NCBI GenBank assembly: GCA_029433415.1
Contig: JAQTIA010000003.1
Location: 1,206,501-1,270,500, forward strand
Source: Acetobacteraceae bacterium ESL0709
GTDB taxonomy: Bacteria; Pseudomonadota; Alphaproteobacteria; Acetobacterales; Acetobacteraceae
Direction of reading: 5' to 3'
DNA length: 64,000 nt
Shown in pieces: positions 42,667 through 49,638 of the stretch; position 1 is the first letter of the stretch; every line of letters begins with the position of its first letter. Both the position numbers and the translations under genes were made by a program. Under the pieces are notes generated by a model. That model searched no databases. It had not been told where the DNA came from and saw only the letters and a list, made by a program, of their open reading frames with translations.

Positions 42667-43656
42667 ATGAATCCTTGTATCCCTCCTCCCGTCCTGTCAG
42701 CCTTCACTATCCATAAAGCATGGATGGACTGGCTACGTTTTGAGCAACATCTCAGTGCAAAAACAATCATAGCGTACAGTCATGATAACGTGCAGGCGCT
42801 CAATTTTTTCCAGAATCATTTAGGCCGCGAACCTACCCTTGATGACCTGAAAAATCTTGCTCTGGCTGATTTCAGGGCATGGCTTGCCTATGAAACAGGG
42901 AAAACGGAACAGAAAAAACAGTCCCAGCCACAACATCATAAAGACAGCACAACGCGCACCCGTGCAAGACGTCTCTCATCCCTGCGGTCATTCTTTCGCT
43001 ATCTCAAGCAACGCTATGGATTGGAACAACCTGCCTTATCCTTGCTGCATAATCCCCGCCTTAAACCACGTCTACCACGTCCCTTAAACGTGCAGGACGC
43101 ACAAAATGCTCCTGAAGGCATTGCAGAGCAGGAACATACGCTCCCCATGGCCCTACGTGATCAGGCACTGTTCACCCTGCTTTATGGTGCTGGTCTGCGT
43201 ATCAGTGAAGCCTTGTCTCTCACGATAGAGGATCTGGATCGATCAGGGGGCGAAACCCTTTTAATCAAGGGCAAGGGAGGAAAAGAACGCTTTGTACCAC
43301 TTTTACCGAAAGTAAGAAAAAAGCTTCAGGATTGGCTCAGGGTCCACCCCGCGCCACAGCCTTCCGGGCCTCTTTTTTGCGGCATACGGGGAGGGCCACT
43401 AAATCCGGGAGTCGCCCAGCGCGCCATGAGACAATGGCGCAAGCTACAGGGTCTGCCCGACTCCGCAACCCCCCACGCCTTACGCCACGCTTTTGCCTCC
43501 CATCTTTTGCAAGGCGGAGCTGATCTGCGTGCCATTCAGGAGCTTCTGGGTCATGCCAGTCTCTCATCCACACAAATCTATACGTTAGCTGATGAACAAC
43601 ATCTTATGGATGTCTGGCAAAAAGCTCACCCGCGCGCTAACGTCAAATCATCATGA
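42667..43656 (+). CDS. xerC: Tyrosine recombinase XerC
   Basis: Resolves chromosome dimers at dif with XerD. 329 residues. The core-binding N-terminal domain includes FEQHLSAKTIIAYSHDNVQALNFF. Catalytic residues: Arg in LYGAGLRISEAL, Lys in KGKGGKERFVPL, His and Arg in PHALRHAFASHLL, His in LLGHASLSSTQ and the nucleophile Tyr in QIYTLAD. Another Xer-like integrase is possible, but the position beside priA and the length fit XerC. The 3' end overlaps the next gene by 4 bases. Confidence 0.88.
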   Translation: MNPCIPPPVLSAFTIHKAWMDWLRFEQHLSAKTIIAYSHDNVQALNFFQNHLGREPTLDDLKNLALADFRAWLAYETGKTEQKKQSQPQHHKDSTTRTRARRLSSLRSFFRYLKQRYGLEQPALSLLHNPRLKPRLPRPLNVQDAQNAPEGIAEQEHTLPMALRDQALFTLLYGAGLRISEALSLTIEDLDRSGGETLLIKGKGGKERFVPLLPKVRKKLQDWLRVHPAPQPSGPLFCGIRGGPLNPGVAQRAMRQWRKLQGLPDSATPHALRHAFASHLLQGGADLRAIQELLGHASLSSTQIYTLADEQHLMDVWQKAHPRANVKSS

Positions 43657-44573
43657 AGTGTCTGCCTGCCCTGGTGATGATCTTTTCGGCGGCCCTTGCT
43701 CCTCCGGCAAAGGCTGGTACACTCTGTCAATTCCAGCATGTCGCCACAATCGCCTTGCATAATAACGACTACACCATCAGCACGCAGGGAATAATAAACG
43801 GACATAATCTTTCTTTTCTTGTCGATACCGGTTCTGAAGGCAGCCTTCTGACACCTGAGGCCCTCACTCTTTTCGATCTCGTCCCCGACCCTTTGCTAAA
43901 AACCATCATTTCAGGCCCCGATGGAAAAGGTCATGTCGTCCCCGGCACGACAGTTTCTTCCCTTATGGTAGGCGGATTACATCTGGACAACGTCATCTTT
44001 CCTGTAGGGGAGATTCCTGGTGCTCCTTTGCTACACCCCCCTCTTCTGGGCCTGATCGGCATGGATGTGCTGGGTCGTTATGATCTGGACTTCGATCTGC
44101 CTCATAACCGGCTTTCTTTCTGGGAAGTCCGGTCAGACTCCCTCCTTTGCAAACATCCTCCCGACTGGTCTGGGCTGACACCTGTTACCACTATCAGATC
44201 TCTGGATGCCCGACGTGAAGGAAGAAGATTTATGATCCCTTTTATGCTGGACGGCCATAAAGGAACAGCACTGCTTGATAGCGGAGCACGCTCGCATATT
44301 GTCAGCCTTTCTTTCGTTCATAAAATCGGCCTCAGCGATGAGGCATTAGCGCAGGACCCAGGAGGCTATAGTGCGGGTATCGGATCTCGGGAAAGGCGCT
44401 ATCAATGGCATAAATTCCAACAGCTCCGCATTGGGCACGAAGTCACAAACACTCCGACCCTCACCATCGCTCCCATGGACAGCCACGCTGATATGCTCCT
44501 CGGTGCAGACTGGTTTACAACCCACCATATCTGGATTTCAAACGCCGACGGACAAATTTACCTGCACCCTTGA
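43653..44573 (+). CDS. Exported retropepsin-like aspartic protease
   Basis: 306 residues with a signal peptide (ALVMIFSAALAPPAKAG). Two retropepsin-type half-sites in tandem: FLVDTGSEGSLLT near residue 57 and ALLDSGARSHIVS near 213, each with the catalytic Asp in D-T/S-G. Flap-like glycine regions follow each. Having both aspartates on one chain means it could fold as a pseudo-dimeric protease in the periplasm. Function in this lineage unknown. Overlaps xerC by ATGA. Confidence 0.82.
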   Translation: MKCLPALVMIFSAALAPPAKAGTLCQFQHVATIALHNNDYTISTQGIINGHNLSFLVDTGSEGSLLTPEALTLFDLVPDPLLKTIISGPDGKGHVVPGTTVSSLMVGGLHLDNVIFPVGEIPGAPLLHPPLLGLIGMDVLGRYDLDFDLPHNRLSFWEVRSDSLLCKHPPDWSGLTPVTTIRSLDARREGRRFMIPFMLDGHKGTALLDSGARSHIVSLSFVHKIGLSDEALAQDPGGYSAGIGSRERRYQWHKFQQLRIGHEVTNTPTLTIAPMDSHADMLLGADWFTTHHIWISNADGQIYLHP

Positions 44574-44749: not shown

Positions 44750-45433
44750 TCACTTTTTGAGAGAGTATTTCTTTTCAGCCTCTTCCAAAATAGCCGCTAT
44801 ATTTTCATGCTGTCCGTATAAGGCATAAGAACGGGCCGTATAACCTGTCTTGCCTTTTATGAGCGGATCAGCTCCTAACGAAAGCAGTTTTCTGACAGCT
44901 CCATCCTGCCCCCCAGATGCCGCATAGATCAAAGCCGTCTTGCCTGACATATTGGCCTCATCAATGGCGCATCCCGCTTTGGCAAGGCGTTCAATTGCCG
45001 GAACATTATCACTTCCTGCTGCCACCATGAGAGCTGTATTACCCTTGTCAGTCCTGGCACACGGCTCAGCCCCATGAGCGATAAGATAATCTATCATCTC
45101 AGGATTAAAAGAGCCTTTTTCCGTGCCGGTATAACCAGCTGCCACCATAAGAAGCGTATAACCCGTTTCATCACGCATACGAAAATCCAAAGCTTGCCCG
45201 CTCAGACTCTTTAGAATATCGAAACGATTATTATGCGCCACATCAAAAACAAGATCACGCCATTGCCGCTCGGAAAACCGCAACGTCATAGCCGTTGACG
45301 CCGTAGGTAAAGCAAACTTTTGAGGCACAGTCTCCTTGGCCTGAACCACGCCACTCCCTGCAAGTCCCAGAAGCAGAATCGGTAAAAAAACAGAGCGATA
45401 CGTCATCAAACACATTTTTTGGTCAGATTCCAT
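44750..45433 (-). CDS. Exported ankyrin-repeat protein (third of katA cluster)
   Basis: 227 residues: signal peptide (SVFLPILLLGLAGSGVVQA), then a linker with ERQWRDLVFDVAHNN and four ankyrin-type repeats (GYTLLMVAAG, GNTALMVAAGSDN, GKTALIYAASGGQ, GYTARSYALYGQH). It keeps the cysteine pair shared by the three paralogues: HGAEPC and, 30 residues on, KAGC. The start ATG 45433 lies 6 bases after the stop of the previous ankyrin gene, so the two are co-translated. Presumed periplasmic. By analogy with Pseudomonas AnkB beside KatB, it may protect or assist the catalase; that is inference. Confidence 0.85.
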   Translation of the reverse strand: MESDQKMCLMTYRSVFLPILLLGLAGSGVVQAKETVPQKFALPTASTAMTLRFSERQWRDLVFDVAHNNRFDILKSLSGQALDFRMRDETGYTLLMVAAGYTGTEKGSFNPEMIDYLIAHGAEPCARTDKGNTALMVAAGSDNVPAIERLAKAGCAIDEANMSGKTALIYAASGGQDGAVRKLLSLGADPLIKGKTGYTARSYALYGQHENIAAILEEAEKKYSLKK

Positions 45434-45439
45434 GACACC

Positions 45440-46111
45440 CTAATCTTTCTTGCGTACGACAGATTGCCCTTCAGCCACCTGCAACAAGGCAGCCACGTCA
45501 GGATGATTATCATCAAGGGCGTAATTGTAAGCTGTGCGCCCCTTTTTATCCCTGAGAAAGGGATTCGCTCCCATATCAAGCAGCGCACGAACAAACTCAC
45601 CCCTGCCGAATCCGGCAGCCATCATAAGGAGTGTCGTCCCGTCTTCGTGGCTCTGCGCGTTCAGCGAACAGCCAGCCTTTATCAGCCGCTCGAGAATCTC
45701 GACATTTCCGCCAAAAGCCACCCCGGAAAGATCACGCCCCGCCTTATGCCCTGCAACACAATCACTCGCTCCATGATCAAGAAGAAAATTGACTGTCTCA
45801 AGATGTGATCCAGCAGCAGCCAATCCCAAAAGCGTTTCATGATGTTCATCATCGTGAGCGTCGGGGCTGAAACCCTGTGCCAGAAAAGCAGCCAGGACAC
45901 TATTCAGCCCGTCCATCGCCGCCGTAAAATAAAGATCTTTCCACTGCTCAACACTTAATGTCACTTCTTTCAACGCAGGCTTCTGGGTAGGCAAAGATGC
46001 TACATGGCCCTGCGACTCTGCCTGCGCAAAAACCGGTAGTGCAATCAGGCCAGAGAACGTCAGCATCCTGCCACACAGCCACAAACCAGAAAAACGCGAA
46101 AATTCAGACAT
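45440..46111 (-). CDS. Exported ankyrin-repeat protein (second of katA cluster)
   Basis: 223 residues from ATG 46111 (GTG 46123 also possible). Signal sequence (LCGRMLTFSGLIALPVFAQA), VEQWKDLYFTAAMDGLNSVLAAFLAQGFSPDA, then ankyrin repeats (ETLLGLAAAGSHLETVNFLLDHGAS, GRDLSGVAFGGNVEILERLIKAGC, GTTLLMMAAGFGRGEFVRALLDMGANP, GRTAYNYALDDNH). The cysteine pair HGASDC ... KAGC has the same 30-residue offset as its two paralogues. Separated from the GIY-YIG gene upstream by ~150 bases. Confidence 0.85.
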   Translation of the reverse strand: MSEFSRFSGLWLCGRMLTFSGLIALPVFAQAESQGHVASLPTQKPALKEVTLSVEQWKDLYFTAAMDGLNSVLAAFLAQGFSPDAHDDEHHETLLGLAAAGSHLETVNFLLDHGASDCVAGHKAGRDLSGVAFGGNVEILERLIKAGCSLNAQSHEDGTTLLMMAAGFGRGEFVRALLDMGANPFLRDKKGRTAYNYALDDNHPDVAALLQVAEGQSVVRKKD

Positions 46112-46264
46112 CGGCAGAAACACCCGTCACAAACATAATCGGCTACACTATAGCATAATAAAAATAGTTCCGCCTTCGTATCGTGGATTTTCGGGCTGAC
46201 ACCGAGGACGCAAAGACGTTGAGCCCTTCAAATATTTGTCAAAATCACGTGACCCAATAAAGCC

Positions 46265-46933
46265 TTATTCTCCTCCTTGCTCCATTTCTTCACGCAATTC
46301 AAGAAGGGTCTTACCTTGATATTTCCAATAACGGGGTCCCTGGTAGGCGCCTCCCACGGCACCCGTCCGACTGCTAATTTCGCAGGCAGCGGCACTCAGA
46401 CTTGTAACCTTACCCTCAAACTCTATTCTCCGGTCATCGACAACAACACAAGTGATGGCAGAATCATATAACCATTCAAGGGTGGTCCCAGGCACAATAT
46501 CCACCATCCTGAAGTTAAAAACAGAAGCTCGTCTGTTCTCAGACTTCAAGGCAATTATGTCTCTTTCATCCTGCGCACCTGCATCTTCATCAATAAAAAT
46601 CTCTTCTCCAGACAGTAAATTTATAACCGCTTTGACACGCTCTGGATCTATACGAAAAAATTCGCGTTTCTCATTAACCCTGTGATCACCAAACGCCATA
46701 TGAAGGGCAGATTCCACTTTCGCACAATCCCGAACCTGTTTAGCGCACACGCACTCAAAAGGAACCGGCACACCCGTCGTATGAAGCGCCTTCATTCTGC
46801 TAGGAAGATCACTGGCTGTAATGCCTATTTTTACCAATCCAGGCATCACAGGATTAATAAGCACATATATGATACCGTTATTTATATGATCCTCTGGCGG
46901 TACCATAGTCAGAGCTACAGTCTGTCTTTCCAT
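46265..46933 (-). CDS. GIY-YIG-type nuclease domain protein with DUF4357-like tail
   Basis: 222 residues. The N-terminal domain resembles the T5orf172/MUG113 branch of GIY-YIG: GIIYVLINPVMPGLVKIGIT, SRMKALHTTGVPVPFECV, KVESALHMAFGDHRVNEKREFF (the Arg and Glu expected of the fold are present). The C-terminal part (RIEFEGKVTSLSAAACEISSRTGAV...GPRYWKYQGKTL) looks like DUF4357. No signal peptide, so cytosolic, unlike the exported ankyrin proteins on both sides. This makes it a probable insertion into the katA-ankyrin cluster. Function not established. Confidence 0.75.
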   Translation of the reverse strand: MERQTVALTMVPPEDHINNGIIYVLINPVMPGLVKIGITASDLPSRMKALHTTGVPVPFECVCAKQVRDCAKVESALHMAFGDHRVNEKREFFRIDPERVKAVINLLSGEEIFIDEDAGAQDERDIIALKSENRRASVFNFRMVDIVPGTTLEWLYDSAITCVVVDDRRIEFEGKVTSLSAAACEISSRTGAVGGAYQGPRYWKYQGKTLLELREEMEQGGE

Positions 46934-46976
46934 CCTTAAACACGCCTACCTTACTATCTTAACCAAGGCGCCCTCT

Positions 46977-47591
46977 TTAATGACGTTCAAGCTTCTTCGC
47001 TTGGGCTTCCTTCAAAATTGCGATAGTGTCCTTGCTGTCCTGCGCCTCGGCCAAGGCAGAAGCAGTCTGCCCCTCCGCATCCTGCACAAGGGGATCCGCC
47101 CCCAGATCAAGCAGGACCTTGACTGTCTCATTGCGGCCGAATATGGCCGCCATCATCAAGGCCGTCTGCCCTGCATAATTCTGCATATCGACCGGGCACC
47201 CCGCTTTGACAAGGCGGCTGACGATAGCGCTTTCTCCCTTGAACGCTGCCGCCATCAAAGCTGTGTTACCCACACGGTCTTTTGCACAGGCTTCTGCCCC
47301 GTGGGAAAGAAGCAGCTCAACAGTCTCTGGATGGTTATTAAAAGCCGCCAGCATAAGGGGGGTATACCCTTTTTCACCTACAACATTAGGCGCAAAGCCC
47401 TGTCTGATCAGGCCTTCGAGAATATCATTACGCCCCTGCCTTGCGGCATCAAGGTAGACATCGCGCAGATGCTCACGCGTATAGGTGGCCTTGCTTTTTA
47501 CAGTCGAAGCGGACACTTCCTGTGAAGCAGCAAAAGACAGGGACGGTACAGCTACCAAAAGGGCACCCAAAAACGAGATTTTACGGATCAT
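46977..47591 (-). CDS. Exported ankyrin-repeat protein (first, next to catalase)
   Basis: 204 residues from ATG 47591 (MIRKISFLG), which has AGGAAAG at 9 bases. The signal peptide ends PSLSFAAS. REHLRDVYLDAARQGRNDILEGLIRQGFAPNV leads into regular ankyrin repeats (GYTPLMLAAFNNHPETVELLLSHGAEAC, GNTALMAAAFKGESAIVSRLVKAGC, GQTALMMAAIFGRNETVKVLLDLGADP, GQTASALAEAQDSK). It carries the cysteine pair HGAEAC / KAGC. Lies ~90 bases downstream of the catalase on the same strand, like ankB behind katB in Pseudomonas. Confidence 0.87.
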   Translation of the reverse strand: MIRKISFLGALLVAVPSLSFAASQEVSASTVKSKATYTREHLRDVYLDAARQGRNDILEGLIRQGFAPNVVGEKGYTPLMLAAFNNHPETVELLLSHGAEACAKDRVGNTALMAAAFKGESAIVSRLVKAGCPVDMQNYAGQTALMMAAIFGRNETVKVLLDLGADPLVQDAEGQTASALAEAQDSKDTIAILKEAQAKKLERH

Positions 47592-47678
47592 AATTACTGC
47601 TTTCCTGAAACTGACAATGTGAAACAAGGAAGTCCTCCCTCTCCGTAATAGGGAAGGAGGAGCTGATTATTCCCCAGT

Positions 47679-49286
47679 CTACTGGACTTGTGTGTCAGAA
47701 ATATGATCCGCTGCCTTGGCCACTTCAGTGACATCCAAATTCAGGGCCTTGGCGAGACGTTCACCATAGGTCTTATCGGCACGATAAATGTAAGAGGCAA
47801 AACGCAGCTGAGTCTCATGGCTTTTGATCATTTTCATGTCACTTGCCATATTATAAACGACTTCCTCCTGCTCATATGGTGAGAAATGGCGATAAACTTG
47901 CCCCGCCTGAGTAAAATCATCCGTTGGATGAACAGCCTGTTTCAGCACAACACCTGAAACCTGATAGCGGCTCAAATTGCGCAGATCAGTCTGTGGTGCC
48001 TCAGAACGCACAATGCCTTTACCTGGGTTCGTCTCATCAACTGAAGCACCCGGATCATCATAACGGCTGGTTGGCTGGTAATTCACATGTCCCTTACGGG
48101 GGCGGATGCTCATCACGCCATCTTGATGATCGTTCTGTACTTCAGGAACGGGGCGGTTAACAGGCAAGTCCTGATAATTGACTCCCAGACGATAACGCTG
48201 CGTATCAGAATAGGCAAAAAGCCTACCCTGCAACATTTTATCAGGAGAAGGTTCGATTCCAGGGACCATCACACCAGGAGAAAAGGCCGACTGTTCCGTG
48301 TCCTGAAAATAATTTTCGGGCATTCTGTTCAGAACCATCGTACCTATTTTCTGCTCAGGAACACCCATCCATTCCTTTGTATCATCAAAAGCATCATAAG
48401 GAAGGGCGGCAGCCTCTTGGGGAGTCAGAACCTGCACATAAAGATCCCATTTCGGAAAATCCCCTTTTCCAATCGCCTCATAGAGATCTTTCGTCGCATA
48501 ATTTGTATCTGCAGCATGAGTTGCCTTGAGGTCCATACCCTGCACACCTTGCAGACTGACCCAATGGAATTTCACAAAATGAGTTTCACCCTTGTCATTA
48601 ATGACACGGAAAGCATGCACGCCCTGCCCATCCATATGACGATAATTAATCGGCATGCCGTATTTGTCAGAATAGATATAGGTCAGCATATGGACTGACT
48701 CAGGAGCGTTGGAGAAAAAGTCGAACTGGTTATTCATATCCTGCATGTTCGTCACAGGATCAGGCTTGAGGGCATGCACAAAATCAGGAAACTTGATGGC
48801 ATCACGAATAAAGAAAACAGGAAGGTTGATTCCGACCAGGTCCCAGTTCCCCTCATCTGTATAAAATTTTGTCGCGAAACCACGCGGATCTCGCGCCGCT
48901 TCAGGCGAGCCACGATAATTCATCACAGTAGAGAATCGAACAAAAGTTGGTGTCTTCTTACCCGCCTTGAACAATCCAGCCTTGGAAAAAGCTGTAAAGT
49001 CGCCATTAGCTATAAAATAACCATGCGCCCCTACACCACGTGCATGCACCACGCGCTCAGGAATACGCTCACGGTCAAAATGAGCGAGTTTTTCGATCAG
49101 TGCAAAATCCTCCAGCACCACGGGACCATCCTGACCCGCAGTTTTTGAGTTCTGGTTATCAATTGTCACAGCACCTGAATCCTGGCGCATCAAAGGCGGT
49201 TTGACTGATGATGGCGCTGCGGTCTCCGCCAGCGCGGTCGACATCAGAAAAGGCAAGGAAAACAGGGTTACAAAACTCTTTTTCAT
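47679..49286 (-). CDS. katA: Periplasmic haem catalase
   Basis: Monofunctional catalase removing hydrogen peroxide. 535 residues, with a Sec signal peptide (MKKSFVTLFSLPFLMSTALA) that sends it to the periplasm. ATG 49286 has GGAGAGA. Catalytic His81 lies in RIPERVVHARGVGAHGYF, and the proximal haem ligand Tyr359 in RLFAYSDTQRYRLG (with Arg355). PPGIEPSPDK-like VPGIEPSPDKMLQGR is present. The segment GNWDLVGINLPVFFIRD has Ile153 where the usual motif GNNTP has its first, distal-haem Asn (human N148). The first ankyrin gene follows. Symbol by family; katB is equally defensible. Confidence 0.93.
   Translation of the reverse strand: MKKSFVTLFSLPFLMSTALAETAAPSSVKPPLMRQDSGAVTIDNQNSKTAGQDGPVVLEDFALIEKLAHFDRERIPERVVHARGVGAHGYFIANGDFTAFSKAGLFKAGKKTPTFVRFSTVMNYRGSPEAARDPRGFATKFYTDEGNWDLVGINLPVFFIRDAIKFPDFVHALKPDPVTNMQDMNNQFDFFSNAPESVHMLTYIYSDKYGMPINYRHMDGQGVHAFRVINDKGETHFVKFHWVSLQGVQGMDLKATHAADTNYATKDLYEAIGKGDFPKWDLYVQVLTPQEAAALPYDAFDDTKEWMGVPEQKIGTMVLNRMPENYFQDTEQSAFSPGVMVPGIEPSPDKMLQGRLFAYSDTQRYRLGVNYQDLPVNRPVPEVQNDHQDGVMSIRPRKGHVNYQPTSRYDDPGASVDETNPGKGIVRSEAPQTDLRNLSRYQVSGVVLKQAVHPTDDFTQAGQVYRHFSPYEQEEVVYNMASDMKMIKSHETQLRFASYIYRADKTYGERLAKALNLDVTEVAKAADHISDTQVQ

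Positions 49287-49561: not shown

Positions 49562-49638
<77 letters not shown>

Follow-up and report, generated by a model that had tools for sequence, protein, structure and literature searches.

A Candidate Periplasmic KatB–AnkB Locus with Three Diverged Ankyrin Proteins in Acetobacteraceae Bacterium ESL0709

Introduction

How does haem reach a catalase that works outside the cytoplasm? To our knowledge this is not settled, and we know of no demonstration of the mechanism by which AnkB acts in KatB activity. The question is raised by a 64,000-nucleotide stretch of Acetobacteraceae bacterium ESL0709 (contig JAQTIA010000003.1, positions 1,206,501 to 1,270,500; hereafter the window), in which katA, a gene for a predicted exported catalase, is accompanied on the same strand by three genes for ankyrin-repeat proteins likewise predicted to be exported, ank1, ank2 and ank3, whose products are called Ank1, Ank2 and Ank3.

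Catalase-linked ankyrin proteins have been described in several bacteria. In Pseudomonas aeruginosa, AnkB is encoded beside an exported catalase, KatB, and is needed for its full activity (Howell et al. 2000, cited in PMC7567364). In Campylobacter jejuni, too, the catalase is reported to reach full activity only with an ankyrin protein, Cj1386, which carries haem to KatA (PMC7567364, PMC11442138); Tyr57 of Cj1386 is the reported haem ligand, and its mutation lowers the haem and activity of KatA (PMC11442138). According to PMC7567364, the peroxide-induced ank-katE operon of Leptospira interrogans combines a periplasmic catalase with one ankyrin gene.

No literature on catalase-linked ankyrins in Acetobacteraceae was found. 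While the AnkB–catalase pair is known, what is new here, as read from the sequence, is a triplicated AnkB at an exported catalase and an altered groove tyrosine. With a confidence slightly short of even, we read the locus as a periplasmic KatB–AnkB maturation operon in which AnkB has been triplicated and the copies are dividing or changing their role in haem handling.

The Three Ankyrin Proteins and Their Concave Groove

The product of katA matches Pfam Catalase PF00199 (E 2.8e-163) and PF06628, its top PDB match is 1m7s, which we take to be Pseudomonas syringae CatF, and its N-terminus is of the Sec type (MKKSFVTLFSLPFLMSTALA^ETA). By domain content and signal peptide, it is predicted to be a periplasmic catalase of the KatB type, active in the periplasm. 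All signal peptides were called by inspection of the n/h/c pattern, not by SignalP, and those of the three ankyrin proteins end in SFA, AQA or VQA. Ankyrin repeats were also found in all three (Ank_2 E-values of 2.6e-29, 1.8e-19 and 5.2e-30 for Ank1, Ank2 and Ank3), so that each combines the signal peptide and the repeats that characterize AnkB; predicted export of all three had been set as a test by an earlier note on this DNA. The AlphaFold model of Ank1 (mean predicted local distance difference test score 92) has a fold like that of a designed ankyrin repeat protein (Z 28), and both Ank1 and Ank3 are modelled as five-repeat ankyrins, the fold of Ank3 being confidently predicted except for a 7-residue insertion of lower confidence.

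Two cysteines, Cys102 and Cys132 in Ank1 numbering, are present in all three window proteins and in 34 of 34 catalase-linked exported ankyrins, as well as in five more ankyrins from named plasmids, and are found as a pair in none of 9 cytosolic homologues of the family and none of 15 catalase-linked ankyrins of Campylobacterales. The pair is likely conserved for a disulfide in the oxidising periplasm.

Six further residues, R51, Y84, F117, K118, F151 and R153, hardly vary, whether the protein is exported or cytosolic. They sit at positions 13, 14 and 16 of the ankyrin repeats, within the concave face that serves as the binding surface of designed ankyrin proteins. Tyrosine occupies the Y84 column, which lies in the second repeat, throughout three sets of proteins: 39 of 39 relatives, mostly exported (among them some near-identical rows and L083, a protein lacking signal peptide and Cys pair), 9 of 9 cytosolic homologues and 15 of 15 Campylobacterales relatives. 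The cytosolic ankyrin of the window genome itself has it too; in this protein, encoded at L004:1438-1926 (contig 2 of the window genome, G000), the groove is complete (R, Y, FK, F, R) and the Cys pair is absent. In the Campylobacterales proteins the column falls at residues 52-60, mostly 55-57; from position and context in these homologues, not from the Cj1386 sequence itself, it probably corresponds to Tyr57 of Cj1386. The group as a whole would thus share a near-invariant groove whose tyrosine, present in exported as well as cytosolic proteins, coincides with a known haem ligand, while the Cys pair marks the exported form.

The window copies depart from this pattern, each in its own way. In the order R51 to R153, Ank1 has R, Phe, F, K, F and R; Ank2 has Met, Ala, F, Gly, F and R; and Ank3 has His, a displaced Tyr, Gly, Ser, Gly and Gln. 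The tyrosine of Ank3 stands at repeat position 14 instead of 13, next to the 7-residue insertion, the inner helix of the model ending at Gly100 and the tyrosine being residue 101. Therefore, none of the three copies has the tyrosine at the exact position. Ank3 keeps only 1 of 7 groove columns (column 150 included) vs. 32 of its 44 other conserved positions (p 0.006). The suggestion of the earlier note that the ankyrins may have split their roles agrees with these diverged grooves, including the column of the haem ligand. The confinement of the array to one of the compared genomes had escaped that note.

Catalase–Ankyrin Loci in Related Genomes

Loci were gathered from genomes of the family, class and phylum, from a named species collection and from plasmids, and were counted if there was room downstream. 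Among the 53 testable KatB-like loci, a single downstream ankyrin gene is the rule (44 loci); 8 have none and only the window has three. The assignment of the locus to the AnkB–KatB type is therefore borne out by the linkage of ankyrin to catalase in most relatives, and three exported paralogues do exceed the one-ankyrin model, as had been proposed, since none of the other 52 loci has more than one. An array common to the relatives was rejected on the same count (0/52). Chance clustering of ankyrin genes was also ruled out, by the conserved position and by the presence of just two ankyrin genes elsewhere in the window genome, one of them weak.

Between the same flanks as in the window, a single ank gene accompanies katA in G061, the sole further genome of the genus. 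A retropepsin-like orthologue adjoins the single ankyrin gene in G061 and in G101, and in the window the interval between ank1 and the retropepsin-like gene is occupied by a GIY-YIG gene, ank2 and ank3. Because the one-ankyrin state is usual and the AnkB of G061 lies between the same flanks and is 63% identical to Ank1, Ank1 is taken as the ordinary AnkB.

Several further loci were recorded in this survey. On plasmids of Vibrio tubiashii and Serratia marcescens (L181, L182), a superoxide dismutase gene comes next after the catalase–ankyrin pair, and this set suggests a mobile periplasmic oxidative-defence cassette. In other members of the family, catalases without signal peptides (L016, L116, L117) have a downstream ankyrin gene whose product is itself without signal peptide or Cys pair.

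Origin and Retention of the Extra Ankyrins

In a tree of 46 proteins, Ank2 and Ank3 fall among the exported AnkBs of the family, where their exact position is unsure because their long branches join each other. The nearest proteins to Ank3 in 200 family genomes (self excluded) are Ank1 (1.5e-31) and then the AnkB of G061 (4.3e-31). Approximately unbiased (AU) tests speak against a duplication later than the divergence from G061 without rejecting it (p 0.085 and 0.068); a genus-level clade of the copies is compatible with them. By these comparisons Ank2 and Ank3 are AnkB-derived duplicates, probably copied in or near the genus.

The branches of Ank2 and Ank3 (1.56 and 1.77, vs. 0.53 for Ank1 and 0.21 for the G061 AnkB) are what might be expected if Ank1 alone served KatA while Ank2 and Ank3 had come to bind other periplasmic proteins, haem proteins or unrelated ones, their grooves changing with the partner. 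Such neofunctionalisation, which we consider possible and somewhat doubtful, would also suit Ank3, in which most groove residues are lost and the fold and Cys pair are kept; however, both copies remain at the catalase locus, and Ank1 itself lacks the otherwise invariant tyrosine, which is odd for the sole holder of the old job. A faster evolution of Ank1 than of the G061 AnkB was considered and dropped, for the relative-rate test gave p values from 0.006 to 1.0 across outgroups, which disagree.

Fast divergence could alternatively mean that Ank2 and Ank3 are redundant duplicates drifting to loss with no distinct role, each keeping 33 of 51 conserved positions vs. 45 in Ank1. We find this improbable, since the frames of ank2 and ank3 are intact, the signal peptides and both cysteines are kept and the fold of Ank3 is confidently predicted, whereas simulated neutral decay to 38% identity left no stop in only 0.4% of runs and both cysteines in 10%. 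The two genes have therefore presumably been under selection during much of their history.

Locus Organization and the GIY-YIG Gene

The genes on the minus strand are ordered katA, ank1, GIY-YIG gene, ank2 and ank3 (Table 1). Ank1 starts 87 nt downstream of katA, with ank2 and ank3 further down, beyond the GIY-YIG gene. Of the same-strand set of an exported catalase and three exported ankyrins that had been described, the coordinates and signal peptides stand; the direct succession of the ankyrins does not, because the GIY-YIG gene lies between ank1 and ank2.

Table 1. Positions of the catalase–ankyrin genes and flanking landmarks in the window
Feature	Position	Strand	Description
katA	47679..49286	-	535 aa; KatB/CatF-like monofunctional haem catalase with Sec signal peptide (Pfam, PDB match, inspection)
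ank1	46977..47591	-	204 aa; five-repeat ankyrin with signal peptide; orthologue of the relatives' single AnkB
Phe84 codon of ank1	47340..47342	-	TTT; Tyr in all compared relatives; column probably matching Cj1386 Tyr57
GIY-YIG gene	46265..46933	-	T5orf172/MUG113; PDC-S57 candidate defence family (Pfam, PADLOC)
ank2	45440..46111	-	AnkB paralogue, diverged; both Cys and signal peptide present; groove R to Met, Tyr to Ala, K to Gly
ank3	44750..45433	-	AnkB paralogue, diverged; both Cys and signal peptide present; R51, F117, K118, F151 and R153 lost
Retropepsin-like gene	43653..44573	+	Convergent with the ankyrin array; marks the extra DNA of the window
tRNA-Asp	49562..49638	+	Flanking landmark 5' of katA

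The GIY-YIG protein matches the PADLOC family PDC-S57 (PDLC05041) over residues 18-219 (E 9.3e-71), which makes its gene a candidate phage-defence gene. Its relatives are patchy, occurring in 7 of 200 family genomes with the window's genome counted, and in another genus a copy with 71% identity has neither ankyrin nor catalase among its neighbours. The GC content of the gene is 0.456 vs. a window mean of 0.511, base composition having been compared against the window only. We interpret the gene as a probable passenger, gained by horizontal transfer, that splits the array and would stand outside the catalase system.

Such low GC content and patchiness, together with extra DNA between genes that adjoin in relatives, might also point to a joint arrival of the GIY-YIG gene, ank2 and ank3 from another organism as a horizontal cassette lying beside katA by accident. 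This is very unlikely: the GC content of ank2 is ordinary (0.520), both ankyrins group with the exported AnkBs of the family, and no ankyrin gene adjoins the GIY-YIG gene elsewhere. A phage origin of the extra genes was rejected, as the viral contigs searched held no loci related to Ank2, Ank3 or the GIY-YIG protein.

The operon structure of the katA–ankyrin array is a prediction. Promoter and terminator scans of the locus gave counts near those of shuffles, and an extended -10-like sequence, TGCTATAGT, was noted 5' of ank2 by eye only. Strong hairpins occur in the katA–ank1 gap of two relatives (L008:5963-6056, z -4.1; L009:5950-6060, z -6.6), the former followed by a U-rich run, and could possibly be attenuators reducing AnkB relative to catalase; the hairpin of the window gap (47592-47678) is no stronger than those of shuffles (z -0.9). 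Between katA and queE, G061 has a gene with a DPPW motif (MT-A70-like by eye) and a second gene (L008:8222-9702), where the window has only the tRNA-Asp gene.

Proposed Role of the Three Ankyrins in Haem Handling

In the KatB–AnkB maturation operon that we propose, the AnkB gene would have been copied twice in or near the genus and the copies kept. Exported AnkB would help KatA to gain or keep haem via its concave groove, as Cj1386 does for the cytosolic KatA of Campylobacter, and the groove may hold haem or the catalase itself during maturation. In the window lineage these functions would be divided or altered among the three copies. Ank1, which keeps the aromatic and basic part (R51, F117-K118, F151 and R153) and lacks the tyrosine hydroxyl, is most likely the copy that docks KatA; Ank3, devoid of that part, retains a tyrosine one residue away, and Ank2 retains only F117, F151 and R153. 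As the groove losses are unlike, the three are probably complementary or changed haem-handling partners of KatA, not equal chaperones. A more specific version, in which they form a divided haem-delivery relay or complex in the periplasm, the copy that docks KatA having lost the haem ligand of the family and a paralogue having taken it over or replaced it, is unlikely.

Several observations weigh against this proposal. The array occurs in one genome, and Phe84 and the other changes therefore rest on a single assembly. The groove columns and the concentration test were chosen after inspection of the alignment; the loss in Ank2 is not concentrated in the groove (3/7 vs. 30/44 kept, p 0.23) and may be general divergence, and the displaced tyrosine of Ank3 adjoins the insertion of lower model confidence. 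The equivalence to Tyr57 depends on position and context in the Campylobacterales homologues. Moreover, two genomes, G029 and G116 (L012, L013), carry an exported KatB-like catalase without an adjacent ankyrin gene, and the whole genome of G029 has one weak ankyrin match only, so that AnkB would be dispensable in some lineages.

The locus would offer a natural experiment on haem delivery to an exported enzyme. Because the window copies have lost different parts of the groove, gene removals and residue swaps could separate the docking of catalase from the holding of haem.

Comparison with Known Systems

KatB–AnkB of P. aeruginosa is close in layout to the window locus, with an exported catalase and an exported ankyrin side by side, and Ank1 resembles the single ankyrins next to KatB-like catalases across Pseudomonadota; however, one ankyrin is present there and three in the window, split by the GIY-YIG gene. 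The window ankyrins may, like AnkB, be required for full catalase activity. The ank-katE operon of Leptospira is comparable in having a periplasmic catalase in an operon with an ankyrin gene, and differs in its single ankyrin gene, the likeness being drawn from its description. KatA–Cj1386 of C. jejuni is similar in that the ankyrin gene of Campylobacterales lies directly 3' of the catalase gene and its product shares the groove residues R, Y, FK and F. In contrast, Cj1386 is cytosolic, without the Cys pair and with Tyr57, while the window ankyrins are exported and have the Cys pair; by the matching column and the signal peptides, neither the exact tyrosine nor a cytosolic location is found in them. 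The groove tyrosine that is invariant in the relatives is thus replaced by Phe in Ank1 and Ala in Ank2 and is displaced in Ank3.

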